Assembly: GCA_030532895.1 (NCBI GenBank) | Contig: JAUNKF010000001.1 | Span: forward strand, 186,001 to 250,000 | DNA from: Lautropia sp. | Lineage (GTDB): Bacteria > Pseudomonadota > Gammaproteobacteria > Burkholderiales > Burkholderiaceae_E | DNA: 64,000 nt | Direction: 5' to 3' | In this document: piece by piece, positions 6,190 to 42,196 of the stretch | Numbering within the stretch: position 1 is the first letter of the stretch | Layout of the letters: the number at the start of each line of letters is the position of its first letter | Made by a program: the position numbers and the translations under genes | The notes under the pieces: model-generated | Told to the model about the DNA's origin: nothing | The model's database searches: none | Seen by the model: the letters and a program-made list of their open reading frames with translations, nothing else

Positions 6190-6281
6190 GACAGGACATC
6201 CTTGCATGGCATGCCTGTCAGCCCCGAAACGTGTCACGTACAGCTTCATCCCCGCGAACTTTTGCGGGCGGGCGTGACACG
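6190..6281 (+). promoter_or_regulatory. Structured 5' leader of the small lipoprotein gene
   Basis: Two hairpins precede the start codon at 6319. The first pairs GACAGG (6190-6195) with CCTGTC (6214-6219). The second pairs CGTGTCACG (6230-6238) with CGTGACACG (6273-6281) and nests an inner CCCGC/GCGGG stem (6251-6255 with 6264-6268). A pyrimidine-rich run, CTCTTTCTT, follows. This could be an attenuator or a stability element. I recognise no known riboswitch class. Confidence 0.4.
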
Positions 6282-6318
6282 CTCTTTCTTCAAGCTCTCT
6301 TACAGGAAAAGAAAAACC

Positions 6319-6714
6319 ATGCGTAAATTGATGTTTGCCGCTCCGCTGCTGGCCCTGGCTCTGGTTGGCTGCAACAAGCAGGAGACGGCTTCCACCGAAG
6401 CCGACAAGGCGATGGACGCAGCCAAGGAAAGCGCCACCCAGGCCGTGGAAGCCGCCAAGGATGCGGCTGCCAATGCGAAGGATGCCGCCGGGCACGCCAT
6501 CGAGGCTGGCAAGGAAAAGGCTGCCGAGCAGATGGACAAGGCCAAGGACGCAGCTGCCAACATGAAGGATGCCGCGGCCGAGAAGTATGATGCCGCCAAG
6601 GAAGCCGCCGCCGAAAAGTATGATGCTGCCAAGGCCGCCACCAATGAGAAGGTGGACGAAGCCAAAGCCGCAGCTGACCGCGCGGTCGAAGCCGCCAAGC
6701 AAAAGGCCAACTGA
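6319..6714 (+). CDS. Small Ala/Lys-rich lipoprotein with LEA-like 11-residue repeats (paralogue 1)
   Basis: Predicted lipoprotein of 131 residues. The signal peptide MRKLMFAAPLLALALVGC ends in a good lipobox (LVGC, C18). The rest is almost pure amphipathic helix built of A, K, D and E, with a near-perfect tandem 11-residue unit (AAEKYDAAKEA, AAEKYDAAKAA) like group 3 LEA proteins. It is closely related to the gene at 11668. The start is the ATG after AGGAAAAG; the frame is open further upstream, but only the ATG gives a signal peptide. Location is probably the envelope; function is unknown. Lpp-like tethering and desiccation or stress protection are both guesses. Confidence 0.85.
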   Translation: MRKLMFAAPLLALALVGCNKQETASTEADKAMDAAKESATQAVEAAKDAAANAKDAAGHAIEAGKEKAAEQMDKAKDAAANMKDAAAEKYDAAKEAAAEKYDAAKAATNEKVDEAKAAADRAVEAAKQKAN

Positions 6715-11286: not shown

Positions 11287-11667
11287 TGCCCATGCGTGCA
11301 TCCGCCCGGAAGCCTTTTATGGGACGAATCAGCGCCTGAGTCACGCCAGGCGCCCGTGGGCGCCTGCACTGCCAGCCCCTCGAAGCGCCACCAACCGCGA
11401 CAGCACATGTCGGGGATATTGCGAGCCAGCCCCTAATCTTTCAGCAAGTATCAAATGGGCGCATTGGCTGACACCTTCACACAGCCCGCGACATCAGCCT
11501 CACACAAGGTGCCGAAGCGACTGATAGGATGGCAACGCCGCTCGTGCATGGGTTCCTGCCCACGATGGCCCATTCGGGTGTCATGGCATGAGGCTGGCCA
11601 GCGTCTGTTGAGAAAGGTGGCAACAGAACGACAGAAAGCAACGTGATTCCACCTGAACGGAGAGATT
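11287..11667. other. Intergenic region before the second lipoprotein
   Basis: No gene is supported. A perfect 8-bp hairpin (CAGGCGCC/GGCGCCTG, 11347-11366) follows the phosphoesterase gene without a T run. GGGACGAAT at 11321-11329 weakly resembles part of the short repeat described at 35935. The ribosome site for the next gene, GGAGAG, is at the right end. Confidence 0.5.
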
Positions 11668-11991
11668 ATGCGCAAACTGATTTTTGCTGCCCCGCTGCTG
11701 GCTTTGGGTCTCGTGGCCTGCAAACAGGAAGCCCCCGCACCAGACGCAAGCCAGTCGATGGATGCCGCCAAGGAAAGTGCTGCCCAAGCGGCCGATGCAG
11801 CCAAAGATGCAGCCGCTGAAGCCAAGGATGCCGCTGGCCATGCAGCCGATGCAGCACGTGCCGAAGGCGCTGCAGCAGCAGAAAAGGCTGAAGAATCAGC
11901 AACCCAGCTGAAAAACGACGCCGCCCGGACGGCCGAAGAAGCCAAGGCTGCAGCCGAGCGAGCCGTGGAAGCTGCCAAACAGAATCAGTGA
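11668..11991 (+). CDS. Small Ala-rich lipoprotein with LEA-like repeats (paralogue 2)
   Basis: Predicted lipoprotein of 107 residues, paralogous to the gene at 6319. The signal peptide MRKLIFAAPLLALGLVAC differs from that of paralogue 1 at only three positions. The mature part again has MDAAKESAAQA, AAKDAA and AKDAAGHA blocks and ends in RAVEAAKQ. It is shorter and lacks the EKYDAAK units. GGAGAG lies just before the ATG and a strong terminator follows. Upstream regions of the two copies are not alike, so they may be expressed under different conditions. Function unknown; probably anchored in the envelope as an amphipathic helix. Confidence 0.85.
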   Translation: MRKLIFAAPLLALGLVACKQEAPAPDASQSMDAAKESAAQAADAAKDAAAEAKDAAGHAADAARAEGAAAAEKAEESATQLKNDAARTAEEAKAAAERAVEAAKQNQ

Positions 11992-14281: not shown

Positions 14282-14833
14282 CTAGCGCAGCCGTTCAGGC
14301 GCCGGGTTCCGCCAGGCCACGATTCGCTGAATCACGGCCGGGCGCGGTGAGCCAAGTACCCCCTGCTCGAAGGCACACACCCGCAATGCCGCCCGTCGTG
14401 CCGCCGTCAACAATTCGTCGGGTTGCAGCAGGAAGGCCGGATTGGCCGGCCTACCATAGCGCGCATGACCAGCGGCGAAGGTTTCATAGATCAGGCAACC
14501 GCCGTCTGCCAACAATCCCAACAGCATATCCAGTCTTGGACGAAACAGGTATCGGCTGACCACTATGACGGCAAAGCGCTCCGAGCAGAAATCCCAGGCG
14601 GTCGACTCCAGATCGACCACCCGCGCTTCGATGCCCGGTACCTCATTCAACACCAGGCAGGCCGGGTTGCGATCCAAAGCCAACACCTCGAACCCCCGTT
14701 CGGCAGCCAGTTTGGCATGCCGGCCGGCGCCACAGGCAAAATCCAAGGCACGCCCCGGCCCTGTCGGCTCGGGCAACCAACGTGCCACCCAGTCACTGGG
14801 CTGGGCATCATGGGCAAGTTCCTGGGCTGACAT
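14282..14833 (-). CDS. Class I SAM-dependent methyltransferase
   Basis: Small soluble methyltransferase of 183 residues, substrate unknown. SAM-binding motif I is RALDFACGAGRHAKLAAERG (about residues 29-48); the acidic post-I residue is in EVLALDRN; then come FAVIVVSRYLFRPRLDMLLGLLADGGCLIYETF (motifs IV-V). The fold and length resemble TehB-like or tRNA/metabolite methyltransferases. The ATG at 14833 has AGGAG upstream. It is divergent from the GGDEF/EAL gene, whose GTG start lies only 44 bases away. Confidence 0.8.
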   Translation of the reverse strand: MSAQELAHDAQPSDWVARWLPEPTGPGRALDFACGAGRHAKLAAERGFEVLALDRNPACLVLNEVPGIEARVVDLESTAWDFCSERFAVIVVSRYLFRPRLDMLLGLLADGGCLIYETFAAGHARYGRPANPAFLLQPDELLTAARRAALRVCAFEQGVLGSPRPAVIQRIVAWRNPAPERLR

Positions 14834-14877
14834 GGCAGCAGCTCCTGTTATCACGGTACGGGGTGGGTTCAACTGAC

Positions 14878-17751
14878 GTGGCAAAGCGCAAATCACGCCA
14901 ATTCTATTCACATCAGGTGCTGGGGCCACGGCGCCTGGTGATCTTCGGCCTGCCAACCGTGGTGGCGAGCCTCATCGTGCTCGGCTATTTTCATGGCAAC
15001 ACCTGGCTCAACGATTACCTCGGATACGTCAGCCCGGTCATCCTGTGCGCCGTCACGCTCTTCAGCTATGGTCTGCTGAAAGTCTCGCTGGAATTGCGGG
15101 AGCAAAGCCGTATCAACCGCCGGCTCAAGGAAGTCCAGGCCCAGCACGGGCTGGCTGAAGGACTGGCCCGGATGGGATCATGGGTGCTCGACATCGCCGA
15201 AGACCGTTTCTACTGGAGCGAGGGCTGCTTTCAGGTTTTCGACCTCGATCCGGCCCACGGTGCCCCTTCCCGGCAGGCTTTCTTCATCTGCATCCACCCC
15301 GAAGATCAGCAGGGCTGGAAGGACGCGCACCGTCGTGCCGTGCGTCAGGGTGAGCAGATCCTTCACAAGTACCGCTATAAAAAACCCAATGGTGAGGTCA
15401 TCTGGATCAGCTCCATCGCCGAGCCGGAATACGATTCGGACGGCAAGCATCTGCTGCGGCTGGCCGGCTCGATCCAGGACATCACGCAAGCCGAGCGGAT
15501 GCAGGCCGAACGCGCCGCCAGCGAGCAGAAATACAAGAACCTGACCGAACTCAGCTCGGACTGGGAGTGGGCGATGAATGCCAACTTCCTGATCACGCAG
15601 ATCACCGGGCGGGTCGATGCCGATCTGAAAGCCTGGTCGGATCATGTGCCCGGTCACTTCCTGTGGGACAACCCCGGCATGCGACTGCTGCCGAACGACT
15701 GGGCCAAGCTGAAAGCCAGCCTTCAGGCCCGTGAAGCCTTCAAGAATCTGAGATTCACGGTACTGGCGCCCACCAAGGAGCTGTATACGATTCAGCTCTC
15801 CGGCCGCCCCACCCTGGATGCAGACACCCAGCAATTCAACGGTTATCACGGCGTGGGCCGTAACGTCACGCTCGAAACCAAGCATGACCTGCTGCTCGCA
15901 CTTGAAAGCAAGTTTGCCGAGCTGGTACGGGAACATGATGAAGAATCGGACGTGATCACCGGCACGATCCGGACGGTCTGCCAGCAGCTCGGCTGGCATG
16001 GCGGCGCGATGCTGGCATTGATCGAAAGCACCCAATCGTTCCGGGTTCAGGAGCACTGGGGCAACGAGGCCATTACCGCGGTACTGGGTCAGATGACCAA
16101 GCCGATTCCGATCCTGAACAACTCCTGCGAGAAACAGGCTTGGGAGGGTGGCGCCGTCTGGCTGGACAACACGGCCCTCGACCGGGCATTCTCGCAGCGC
16201 TACGAAACGACGGCCACACAGTCACAAGCGGCATTCATCACGCCGATCATGGACGAAAAGAACAAGGTGCTGCGGGTGCTGATCTTCTTCTCGCCGATCA
16301 GCTACAAGCAGACCCCCTTCCTGCGCGAGCTGGCAGGCGCGCTCTCGCGCATGATGTCGCTGTATCTGCAGCGAAAGAATGCTGAAGATCGGCTGCGCCG
16401 TGCGTCACAGCACGACGCGCTGACCGGGCTGCCCAATCGGGCGTTTCTCACCGAACACCTGGAGCGGCGGCTTGCGAAGCGGGAACCGCTCGCCCTGCTC
16501 TACATCGACCTTGACCGCTACAAGGCGATCAACGACACGCTGGGCCACCAGGCTGGTGACCAGGTGCTGATCGAGGTGTCGCAGCGCTTCAAGTCCACCA
16601 TCGGGCCGAACAACATCGCGGCGCGGATGGGGGGTGACGAATTCGTGCTGCTGCTCGACAAGCAGAACAATGCGCAGTTCGCCGAGGATCTGGCCCGCCA
16701 GGTGCTGGCCGCGGTCGAACGTCCCTTCATCCTGAAGGGCCGTGCACACTTCCTGTCGGCCAGTATCGGCATCGCCCTCTCTCCGCTGCACGGCAGCGAT
16801 GCGAGCACGCTGATCCGCTGCGCCGACAACGCGATGTACACGGTGAAGTCCGAGGGCCGCAACGATGTACGCCTGTACACGCAAAAGGATGTGAAGCATC
16901 GCGATCCGCAGCAACTCACGGCCGATCTGCCGCTCGCCATGGAGCGTGGTGAGGTGGAGCTGCACTATCAGCCCGTGATTTCGGTGCACGACAACCGCGT
17001 GGTGGGCATGGAGGGGTTGATCCGCTGGCGTCACCCGACGCTGGGCATCTTGATGCCGGATGCCTTCCTGCCACTGGCCGAGCAAAGCAACCTGATGCGT
17101 GAAGTGGGTCTGTGGACGATCCGCCGGGCGCTGGACGACCGCATCAAGCTGGGCCTTGGCTCGCACGATGACCTGGTCGTGTCGGTCAACATCTCGCCCA
17201 CGCAGATGAACGAGGACGATTTCCTCACCAAGGTGCAGACGCTGCTCAGCGAGCGGAAGTTTCCGCCCAAGCTGCTGCGTCTGGAGCTGGTGGAGAACAC
17301 GCTGATCGAAGGCTCGACGAAGACGATCAACCGGCTGAATGCACTGCGCCGGTTGGGTGTGGAAGTGGTGGTGGACAACTTCGGCACCGGCTATGCCTCT
17401 CTCTCTTATCTGCGCAACCTGCCCGTGAGCGGACTGAAGATCGATCACACCTTCGTGAAAGGCTTGCCGGCCGACAAGAGTAACGCTGCCATCATCCACG
17501 CGATCATGACGCTGGCTGAAAAGCTGGGACTCAAAGTGATCGCTGAAGGCGTCAGCTCACGTGAGGAGATGCTGGCGCTACGCGATGTCGGCTGCTCACG
17601 GATGCAGGGCAATTTCATCTCGCGCCCGCTGACGATGGTCGAGATGGCGGCCTTCCTGCAGCATGTGCGAAAGCCGCAGGCGGCTGCCACCGCCCCTGCC
17701 CGGCCCACCAAGCCGGCGCCAAATCCGATGGCCACCCCCGGCCGGTTCTAG
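14878..17751 (+). CDS. Membrane-anchored PAS/GAF/GGDEF/EAL cyclic-di-GMP signalling protein
   Basis: Predicted c-di-GMP turnover or sensing protein, 957 residues. Two transmembrane helices near the N-terminus (VIFGLPTVVASLIVLGYFHG and YVSPVILCAVTLFSYGLL) precede PAS-like domains (about 85-340), then a GAF-like region (about 345-500). The GGDEF domain starts at DALTGLPNRAFL and has an intact GGDEF near residue 584; the RxxD inhibitory site is absent. The EAL domain carries E712-G713-L714 in place of EAL and D833-N834 where the family has the metal-binding DD, while the lysine (K854), the AEGV glutamate (E890) and the NISP asparagine are kept. It is therefore probably a diguanylate cyclase with a weakened or c-di-GMP-sensing EAL. 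The start is GTG (GGGGTGGG upstream); an ATG at 14782 is an alternative. Confidence 0.88.
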   Translation: MAKRKSRQFYSHQVLGPRRLVIFGLPTVVASLIVLGYFHGNTWLNDYLGYVSPVILCAVTLFSYGLLKVSLELREQSRINRRLKEVQAQHGLAEGLARMGSWVLDIAEDRFYWSEGCFQVFDLDPAHGAPSRQAFFICIHPEDQQGWKDAHRRAVRQGEQILHKYRYKKPNGEVIWISSIAEPEYDSDGKHLLRLAGSIQDITQAERMQAERAASEQKYKNLTELSSDWEWAMNANFLITQITGRVDADLKAWSDHVPGHFLWDNPGMRLLPNDWAKLKASLQAREAFKNLRFTVLAPTKELYTIQLSGRPTLDADTQQFNGYHGVGRNVTLETKHDLLLALESKFAELVREHDEESDVITGTIRTVCQQLGWHGGAMLALIESTQSFRVQEHWGNEAITAVLGQMTKPIPILNNSCEKQAWEGGAVWLDNTALDRAFSQRYETTATQSQAAFITPIMDEKNKVLRVLIFFSPISYKQTPFLRELAGALSRMMSLYLQRKNAEDRLRRASQHDALTGLPNRAFLTEHLERRLAKREPLALLYIDLDRYKAINDTLGHQAGDQVLIEVSQRFKSTIGPNNIAARMGGDEFVLLLDKQNNAQFAEDLARQVLAAVERPFILKGRAHFLSASIGIALSPLHGSDASTLIRCADNAMYTVKSEGRNDVRLYTQKDVKHRDPQQLTADLPLAMERGEVELHYQPVISVHDNRVVGMEGLIRWRHPTLGILMPDAFLPLAEQSNLMREVGLWTIRRALDDRIKLGLGSHDDLVVSVNISPTQMNEDDFLTKVQTLLSERKFPPKLLRLELVENTLIEGSTKTINRLNALRRLGVEVVVDNFGTGYASLSYLRNLPVSGLKIDHTFVKGLPADKSNAAIIHAIMTLAEKLGLKVIAEGVSSREEMLALRDVGCSRMQGNFISRPLTMVEMAAFLQHVRKPQAAATAPARPTKPAPNPMATPGRF

Positions 17752-17880
17752 AGCGTGTTATGAACTTATTCGTCCCCGCGCTGGCCCCAAAACCGCGGGC
17801 TGACAAGGCGCCACGCGCCGCCAAGGCTTGATGCCTTCGCAAGCGTGGCAACGCCGTCAGCATGTGGATTTGGGGCCAGC
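17751..17880 (+). repeat. Palindromic intergenic repeat, copy A (full)
   Basis: The left arm GAGCGTGTTATGAACTTATT (17751-17770) with CGTCCCC precedes a 101-bp core (17780-17880). The core has 15-bp terminal inverted repeats, GCTGGCCCCAAAACC and GGATTTGGGGCCAGC, with 14 of 15 matching. Further paired blocks lie inside: GCTGAC with GTCAGC, CCACGC with GCGTGG, and AAGGC-TTGAT-GCCTT at the centre, so the whole core can fold as one long nested hairpin. The near-identical copy B lies at 37489-37613. It sits between two convergent genes. Confidence 0.85.
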
Positions 17881-17954
17881 CCGATGAAGACCAGCCCGGC
17901 ACCGGAAAGACAGGCAGTGCCGGGCAGCTGACCACGCACGCACCACGCAAGCGC

Positions 17955-35734: not shown

Positions 35735-36244
35735 CGGATGATGCTCCGTTTGAAGGGGTTGAGAGGGATCAGAACCGGTGAAGCGGACGCCTGCACGCTG
35801 CCGATGCGCGCCAAATACGCGTCACATGCTCTGACAATCATTCTCAAGTGTAGCATTCAAGCCACCATCCCCGGCCCTGCCAGCCCTGGAGCGGGTTGGC
35901 AACGCAGTGCTGCGCACCCAGAGGGGCTTATCAAGGGGACGAATAAGTGCATAACACGCTCTATCCCGACAGGCGACGCGGCAGACTGAAAGACGGAAGC
36001 CAGCACGGCCCACCCAAGCCCGACATGATGGCTTGGCCCGTTTCTGTGTAATATCGTGACGTAAGATCAGCACACCACGATAGCCAGCCCACGGACAGCC
36101 CTCGGCCGTCCACGTCACCACGTGGCCAAGTGGCGTCAGGTGCTGGCACATCACGGGGGCATCGCCCATCGCCTGAGGCGTGCCGCACCTGAATGCCACA
36201 TCGTCTGCTGATCAAGCCGGTTTTTCCAAGAGGACACCCAGCCC
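35735..36244. other. Divergent intergenic region with solo repeat arm
   Basis: 510 bases upstream of the hydratase-family gene. It carries a short repeat at 35935-35962. The open frames here have no recognisable protein character, and I could not place a promoter. Confidence 0.5.
35935..35962 (-). repeat. Solo left-arm repeat
   Basis: On the reverse strand it reads AGAGCGTGTTATGCACTTAT then TCGTCCCC, identical to the left arm of copy A (17751-17777) except for one base within the shared stretch. The palindromic core does not follow: the neighbouring sequence is unrelated. Confidence 0.7.
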
Positions 36245-37363: not shown

Positions 37364-37410
37364 AGCGCCAGGAAGGGCTGGCGCTTTGACGGTATCCCCG
37401 CGGTACGTCG

Positions 37411-37471
37411 CGCGTGTTGCGCACTTGTACATCTAGGCGCTGACCCCAAAACCCTAGGCTGACCAGCGCCT
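37411..37471 (+). repeat. Palindromic intergenic repeat, partial copy
   Basis: The left arm is degenerate (GCGTGTTGCGCACTTGTACAT from 37412), followed by the first part of the core, GCGCTGACCCCAAAACCC and AGGCTGACCAGCGCC. This shortened copy has its own 8-bp hairpin, AGGCGCTG (37435-37442) with CAGCGCCT (37464-37471). Confidence 0.7.
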
Positions 37472-37488
37472 GTTGTGCATCTTTTGTT

Positions 37489-37613
37489 GTTGCACCTAAT
37501 TAGTCCCCGCGCTGGCCCCAAAACCCTGGGCTGACAAGGCGCCAGGCGCCGCCAAGGCTGGCTGCCGTTACAAGCGTGGCAACGCGCCGTCAGCGTGCGG
37601 TTTTGGAGCCAGC
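37489..37613 (+). repeat. Palindromic intergenic repeat, copy B (full core)
   Basis: The core at 37511-37613 (103 bp) has terminal inverted repeats GCTGGCCCCAAAACC and GGTTTTGGAGCCAGC (14 of 15). It aligns to copy A at 17780-17880 almost base for base, including GGCTGACAAGGCGCCA, CCGCCAAGGCT, CAAGCGTGGCAACG and CGTCAGC. The left arm is degenerate (TTGCACCTAATTAGTCCCCG). Confidence 0.85.
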
Positions 37614-37665
37614 CCGGCCAAGCTTGCCGGCCCAGGCCGGCTGCTTGTACTCACAGCGCTTGTGC

Positions 37666-41473: not shown

Positions 41474-41704
41474 GGTTCAACCCTCACATGAACAAATTGT
41501 TAGCCAGCCTCAAAGCGGATGAAGCAGCAAGCCGCCAATGGCACTGTGGCACGACATCGAACACGATCCGTGCCCGGCTGAAACGGTTTTCACGCGCCCT
41601 GATGCCCAGGCATCCCGCCACTGCGCATCGCCCAAACCCCACCGGGCGCACGTCGTGGCTGCCCCGAGGGGCTTTCGCCGCCACGCATGCGTGCATCACA
41701 CGCG

Positions 41705-42196
41705 CTAGCCAGGCTGATACTGGTTCAACAACGCAAAACCATTGGCCGCCAAGGCATCGAGCATCATGCGGCTGTGCGCCATCTGCCAGGCCGGTTCGGT
41801 ATGAAAACCGAAGCGGTGCGCCAGCATGGCAGCCACCGTGATGATGACCACCGCACGGGCCGCGCCCAGCAACATGCCGAAGAAACGATCCAGGCCACCC
41901 AGGCCGATAGCCCTGAAACCGCGCGCCGTCAGTTGCCCACCGATCTGCACCAACAGATAGACAAGCACGAAGGCCAGAATCTGGAAGACGACAATGGGGG
42001 CCGTGAACACGTCGCTCAGGAGGGGGGCGATGAAAGCCGCCAGCGGCCCGCACAACAGAAAGCCCAAAATCCAGGCACCCAACCCGAAACCCGTCCGGAT
42101 GAATCCTCGCCAAAAACCCATCCCTGACGAAATCAGCAACGTGAGGGCGATGAACCAATCCCAAAAGGTTGCACTGGCTGTGTAGGTGGAGAGCAT
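41705..42196 (-). CDS. cvpA: CvpA family membrane protein
   Basis: 163 residues with four hydrophobic segments: FWDWFIALTLLISSGMGFWRG, FGLGAWILGFLLCGPLAAFIAP, IVVFQILAFVLVYLLVQIGG and RFFGMLLGAARAVVIITVAAML. The amphipathic GFIRTGF block and DRFFGMLLGAARA are CvpA marks. It is linked to colicin V production, envelope stress and bile tolerance in other bacteria; the molecular function is unclear. Typical location upstream of purF and downstream of the SPOR-domain gene. Confidence 0.92.
   Translation of the reverse strand: MLSTYTASATFWDWFIALTLLISSGMGFWRGFIRTGFGLGAWILGFLLCGPLAAFIAPLLSDVFTAPIVVFQILAFVLVYLLVQIGGQLTARGFRAIGLGGLDRFFGMLLGAARAVVIITVAAMLAHRFGFHTEPAWQMAHSRMMLDALAANGFALLNQYQPG

Follow-up and report, generated by a model that had tools for sequence, protein, structure and literature searches.

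What are the near-identical palindromes that lie between convergent genes in this DNA, and how did they come to be there? The 64-kb stretch of the Lautropia genome that we analysed (hereafter the window) had been described, in an earlier note made from its letters, as carrying two such palindromes and a truncated third copy, which were read as REP-like or MITE-like repeats moved in trans and possibly serving as terminators. Our results indicate that these repeats are, with high confidence, mostly truncated copies of a Lautropia MITE that was most likely moved in trans by a transposase of the IS5/IS427 type.

Palindromic repeats in the window

The motif GCTGGCCCCAAAACC and its inverted partner were found at 17780-17794/17866-17880 and at 37511-37525/37599-37613, with one mismatch in each right arm, and a third copy of the motif, also with one mismatch, is located at 37439-37453. 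Allowing up to three mismatches, the motif matched the window nine times against an expectation of 3.35, and none of 100 shuffles reached nine matches. The two palindromes share 89% identity over 90 ungapped bases and each of them folds better than all of its 200 shuffles (z of -6.5 for copy 1 folded as DNA and of -3.1 for copy 2 folded as RNA). The positions of the two palindromes and of the truncated copy, as well as their foldability, are therefore borne out beyond chance expectation. The true left end of copy 1 was located at 17749, TAGAGCGTGTTATGAACTTATTCGTCCCCG. The truncated head is a direct repeat just upstream of copy 2 and was also matched by blastn (C4:223437-223470). Although all the copies named in the earlier note are real, its inventory missed a short copy and two weaker ones (Table 1). 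Searching the window against Rfam returned nothing but a tRNA. Besides these repeats, the window encodes two small Ala/Lys-rich repeat proteins (6330-6714 and 11655-11976) with similar leader sequences (75% identity over the first 69 bases), which, judging from these sequences, are apparently paralogues.

Table 1. Positions of the MITE copies in the window and of the larger repeat that hosts the MITE in L. dentalis
Feature	Position	Strand	Evidence or remark
MITE copy 1, left part	17749..17886	+	nhmmer full-length profile, E 4.8e-41, profile 1-137; right half absent
Copy 1, TA and 30-bp TIR	17749-17779		
Copy 1, hairpin 2	~17780-17880		
MITE copy 2, worn left end and hairpin 2	37496..37617	+	nhmmer E 1.1e-31, profile 16-135
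Truncated MITE head, TIR GCGCGTGTTGCGCACTTGTAC... and start of hairpin 2	37408..37466	+	nhmmer E 4.5e-5, profile 4-58
Short MITE version without hairpin 2, divergent gap	35911..35963	-	nhmmer short-form profile, E 6.9e-15; exact TIR 35947-35962
Degenerate short MITE copy, upstream of purF-like gene	41652..41707	-	nhmmer E 1.3e-6; exact TIR-pattern match
Degenerate short MITE copy, both TIRs, upstream of small Ala/Lys-rich protein gene	6227..6286	.	nhmmer E 5.1e-6
Larger L. dentalis repeat, empty	L095:143-312, L172:500-675, L141:1520-1689		
Larger L. dentalis repeat, MITE-filled	L092-L095 and L103		

Architecture and fold of the complete element

Reading outwards from the copies, we found a conserved end motif, TAGAGCGTGTTATGCACTTATTCGTCCCCG. 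This motif occurs as a convergent pair separated by 269-291 bp in congeners and once in the source genome (C2:59497-59786), and whole elements with both terminal inverted repeats (TIRs) were found in four Lautropia genomes. The complete element is 269-291 bp long and consists of a TA, a 30-bp TIR, two long hairpins separated by a short linker, a second 30-bp TIR and a TA. Hairpin 1 corresponds to AAAGCCCC...GGGGCTTT and hairpin 2, which is the one that had been noticed initially, to GCTGGCCCCAAAACC...GGTTTTGGGGCCAGC. The 15-bp arms reported as terminal inverted repeats are real, but belong to an internal hairpin instead of forming the ends of the element. Reduced copies are common in the source genome, where they retain either the left TIR and hairpin 2, as at both window sites, or form a version of ~64 bp that lacks hairpin 2.

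Nearly the entire element folds into a single Y, composed of the TIR stem and the two hairpins. The folding energy of one full copy was -210.7 kcal/mol versus -121 for its shuffles (z of -17.3). We derived the consensus pairing from the full-length set; RNAalifold yielded a poor consensus on the mixed and partly truncated hairpins of the source genome. Four genomes supplied 20 full copies for this set; of their 2019 cells, 98.9% were paired (98.7% in the TIR stem), versus 35-44% in a control where partners were slid by one to three columns, and both sides had changed with pairing kept in 20 of the 101 pairs. Palindromes are prone to hairpin-templated correction, and these compensating changes may result from selection or from such correction, since both fit the data. 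It is possible, but rather unlikely, that the Y-shaped fold is maintained, for instance because recognition, copying or processing acts on a folded single strand or a cruciform. If so, the interior would not be due to chance, and the element would exceed a simple IS5 MITE.

Distribution, insertion sites and neighbouring genes

The copies would have told against a mobile element, according to the earlier note, had they been unique in the genome and their sites invariant among relatives. Instead, a search of the 3.64-Mb draft genome with the hairpin gave 43 matches, and both window sites lack the element in congeners. The end motif, with up to two mismatches, has 90 copies in the source genome and none in the reversed control. 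The hairpin was detected in four of eight genomes of the same genus and in none of 32 genomes of other genera, and the exact degenerate TIR-motif pattern retrieved 61 stretches, all labelled Lautropia, from a genome collection of 84,980 species. Mean identity among full copies is 96%, 95% and 91% in the congener genomes G003, G001 and G006, respectively, and the family was therefore active fairly recently in those lineages. The source genome, with one full copy seen to possess both ends, suggests a decaying MITE population. The start of five G006 contigs (C9, C16, C24, C33 and C35) lies ~25 bases within a MITE end, and these repeats thus seem to break short-read assemblies of Lautropia.

At both window sites, the element is absent from the orthologous gaps of 7-8 congeners, although these gaps are much diverged. 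L050, another site of the source genome, carries the element whereas its counterpart in G006 does not, but the duplication there is ambiguous. In L. dentalis, a larger repeat is interrupted by the MITE at the same point in five of its copies and is empty in three others (Table 1). The flanks of the filled copy L092 correspond to the empty copy L141 plus two bases, which is the length expected for a 2-bp duplication of TA; four filled copies have altered flanking dinucleotides, which preclude a clean reading of the duplication. These four copies have identical mutated MITE ends, and the composite of repeat and MITE itself therefore seems to have multiplied. The larger repeat, which exceeds 170 bp and comprises two hairpins around TTTTAGCGCTGAAGG, constitutes a second palindromic family and provides the MITE with a host site. 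These presence/absence comparisons were made between species and do not by themselves prove recent transposition. The target duplication that we looked for is further reflected at the ends: TA precedes 122 of 176 distinct ends, 102 of these with a pyrimidine before it (Y-TA), and the next commonest dinucleotides, TG and CA, are transitions of TA. The MITE-like nature and movement in trans proposed earlier are upheld by TIRs shared with IS5 elements and flanked by TA, by dispersed copies, by presence/absence among congeners and by empty copies of the insertion site.

To determine gene contexts, we used a gene finder based on codon usage, for which the window and stretches of the source genome and G006 served as training data. 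Among 53 distinct sites of the source genome, 30 are in tandem gaps, nine in convergent and eight in divergent ones, six are unclear, and none lies within a gene. Gaps in the background are ~66-69% tandem, 16% convergent and 15-18% divergent. With nine of 47 classified sites versus ~16% of gaps, convergent placement is not a property of the family: both palindromes named in the earlier note do lie between convergent genes, but genome-wide such sites occur at the background rate. This bears on a possible retention of the hairpin as a bidirectional transcription terminator or as a stabiliser of mRNA 3' ends between convergent genes. The position of both hairpin-bearing window sites, the very stable fold and the pairs that changed on both sides yet remained paired would fit such a role. 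However, a terminator scan of both window sites identified no T-run following a GC-rich stem, orientations are near the gap background, orthologous gaps are devoid of copies and the hairpin is missing from many copies, which makes this role very unlikely.

The neighbouring genes present another regularity. At 18 of 176 ends, the adjoining gene stops at a TAG that consists of TA and the element's first G, whereas any other single distance between -40 and +60 accounts for at most two ends. In the window, the end of copy 1 supplies the stop codon (17749-17751) of an EAL/GGDEF gene (14782-17751). The orthologue of this gene in G006 has a TGA stop at the corresponding place. The 18 ends represent an excess relative to simple TA availability (P of 4e-6 to 6e-4) but not relative to a YTAR target (P of 0.17). 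We do not postulate a dedicated targeting of stop codons: a YTAR target, with survival limited to insertions in intergenic DNA or stop codons, would account for the excess. Since the element begins with G, a TAA or TAG codon whose TA is hit by an insertion would be rebuilt as TAG, and stop codons would thus be tolerated landing sites in a GC-rich genome.

Relation to IS5/IS427 transposases and to known repeats

The end of the MITE is identical to one end of each of two IS5-family elements over exactly 19 bases, including the TA, after which the sequences diverge abruptly, and the interiors are unrelated. A decayed IS5-family element of 863 bp in G006 (L166:900-1762, on contig C16), with several stops and frameshifts, has the ends TAGAGCGTGTTATGAACTT and TAGAGCGTGTGATGACTT; its left end matches the MITE at 19/19 positions and its right end at 15-16/19. 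A protein search identified intact relatives with the same style of ends in plasmids of Burkholderiaceae. Similarly, one end of an intact Mycetohabitans IS (861 bp including TA, encoding WP_235091535.1), TAGAGCGTGTTATGCACTTTTC, matches the MITE at 19/19 positions and the other end at 16-17/19, and its interior is unrelated. The IS5/IS427 elements of Paracoccus, which include IS1248 and ISPpa6, present TA at their ends and are mostly 832-865 bp long; their inverted repeats measure ~13-21 bp and most have a direct repeat of 2 bp, a duplication typical of the group (PMC3281130). These dimensions fit those of the G006 and Mycetohabitans elements. In contrast to such ISs, the Lautropia element lacks a transposase, its interior is unrelated and its TIR extends to 30 bp.

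No intact transposase of the IS5/IS427 group was found in the nine Lautropia genomes examined; the partner-like transposases of the genus amount to the decayed G006 element and a C-terminal match in G008. MITEs of this type usually coexist with an intact partner in their genome or genus, but the partner can disappear and its presence is not obligatory. The source genome has no match to IS5-type domains (PF13340, PF01609) or to the Mycetohabitans transposase. We also considered the DDE_Tnp_1 transposases of L. dentalis (L169, L178 and others) as partners and rejected them, as no paired MITE-like ends surround them. The TA target could alternatively point to a different TA-targeting family such as IS630, and the RUP element of Streptococcus pneumoniae has been proposed to be moved by IS630-Spn1 (PMC2229807). 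The MITE ends, however, match IS5-family elements over 19 bp, and DDE_3 (PF13358) was matched only in G005, a genome free of the MITE, and not in the source genome; a mover of this kind is highly improbable.

The shared ends rather point to mobilisation by an IS427-type transposase. Such a DDE enzyme would have moved the element by binding these ends and linking them to a TA dinucleotide, which would be duplicated in the process. It has probably since been lost or has decayed in the source genome, which would explain why the local copies are wearing out. Sequence comparison indicates that the interior of the MITE is not derived from the IS. No host function is required to account for the copies.

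Several known repeats resemble this element. The Correia/NEMIS elements of Neisseria are likewise small, mainly intergenic TIR elements with TA ends, a stable fold and a target duplication, but they occur in another host and measure ~107 and 155 bp (PMC2229807); the Lautropia element differs by the two long hairpins within its TIR stem. For the Correia TIRs, the same review reports no match to IS ends. Other bacterial MITEs, among them ERIC and RUP, share TIRs, a TA motif, little or no coding capacity and foldability (PMC2229807); ERIC and RUP differ in host and sequence, and RUP is tied to IS630 whereas the Lautropia MITE is tied to IS5/IS427. REP sequences, including GTAG- and CGTC-tagged palindromes, are also dispersed intergenic palindromes (PMC3733652). 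Short intergenic palindromes in many copies would fit a REP/BIME-type element dispersed by a RAYT, a Y1 tyrosine transposase, as raised in the earlier note. This is nevertheless the least credible reading, since no Y1_Tnp (PF01797) match, and hence none of the RAYTs to which GTAG-type REPs are tied, was found in the source genome by a search that was positive in five control genomes, and since the whole element spans 269-291 bp with long TIRs and TA at both sides, with a CGTC that is base-paired within the TIR, whereas REPs are palindromes of 20-40 bp with stems of 8-9 bp (CGTC type), an unpaired tag and neither TIRs nor TA duplication (PMC3733652).

Among the papers searched, none named MITE, IS5 and Lautropia together, and those retrieved for palindromic or repetitive Lautropia DNA were only a CRISPR survey and a review. 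The repeats represent a MITE family of the IS5/IS427 type that is new and whose Y-shaped fold is unusually complete; the family belongs to a known kind of mobile DNA and is not a new kind of system. In oral Lautropia, this family, which is tied to a transposase group, marks numerous intergenic regions, where it probably disrupts short-read assemblies. It also provides a clear case of a transposon end (TA followed by G) that restores a stop codon after insertion into one, which explains how such elements can adjoin genes directly without harm.
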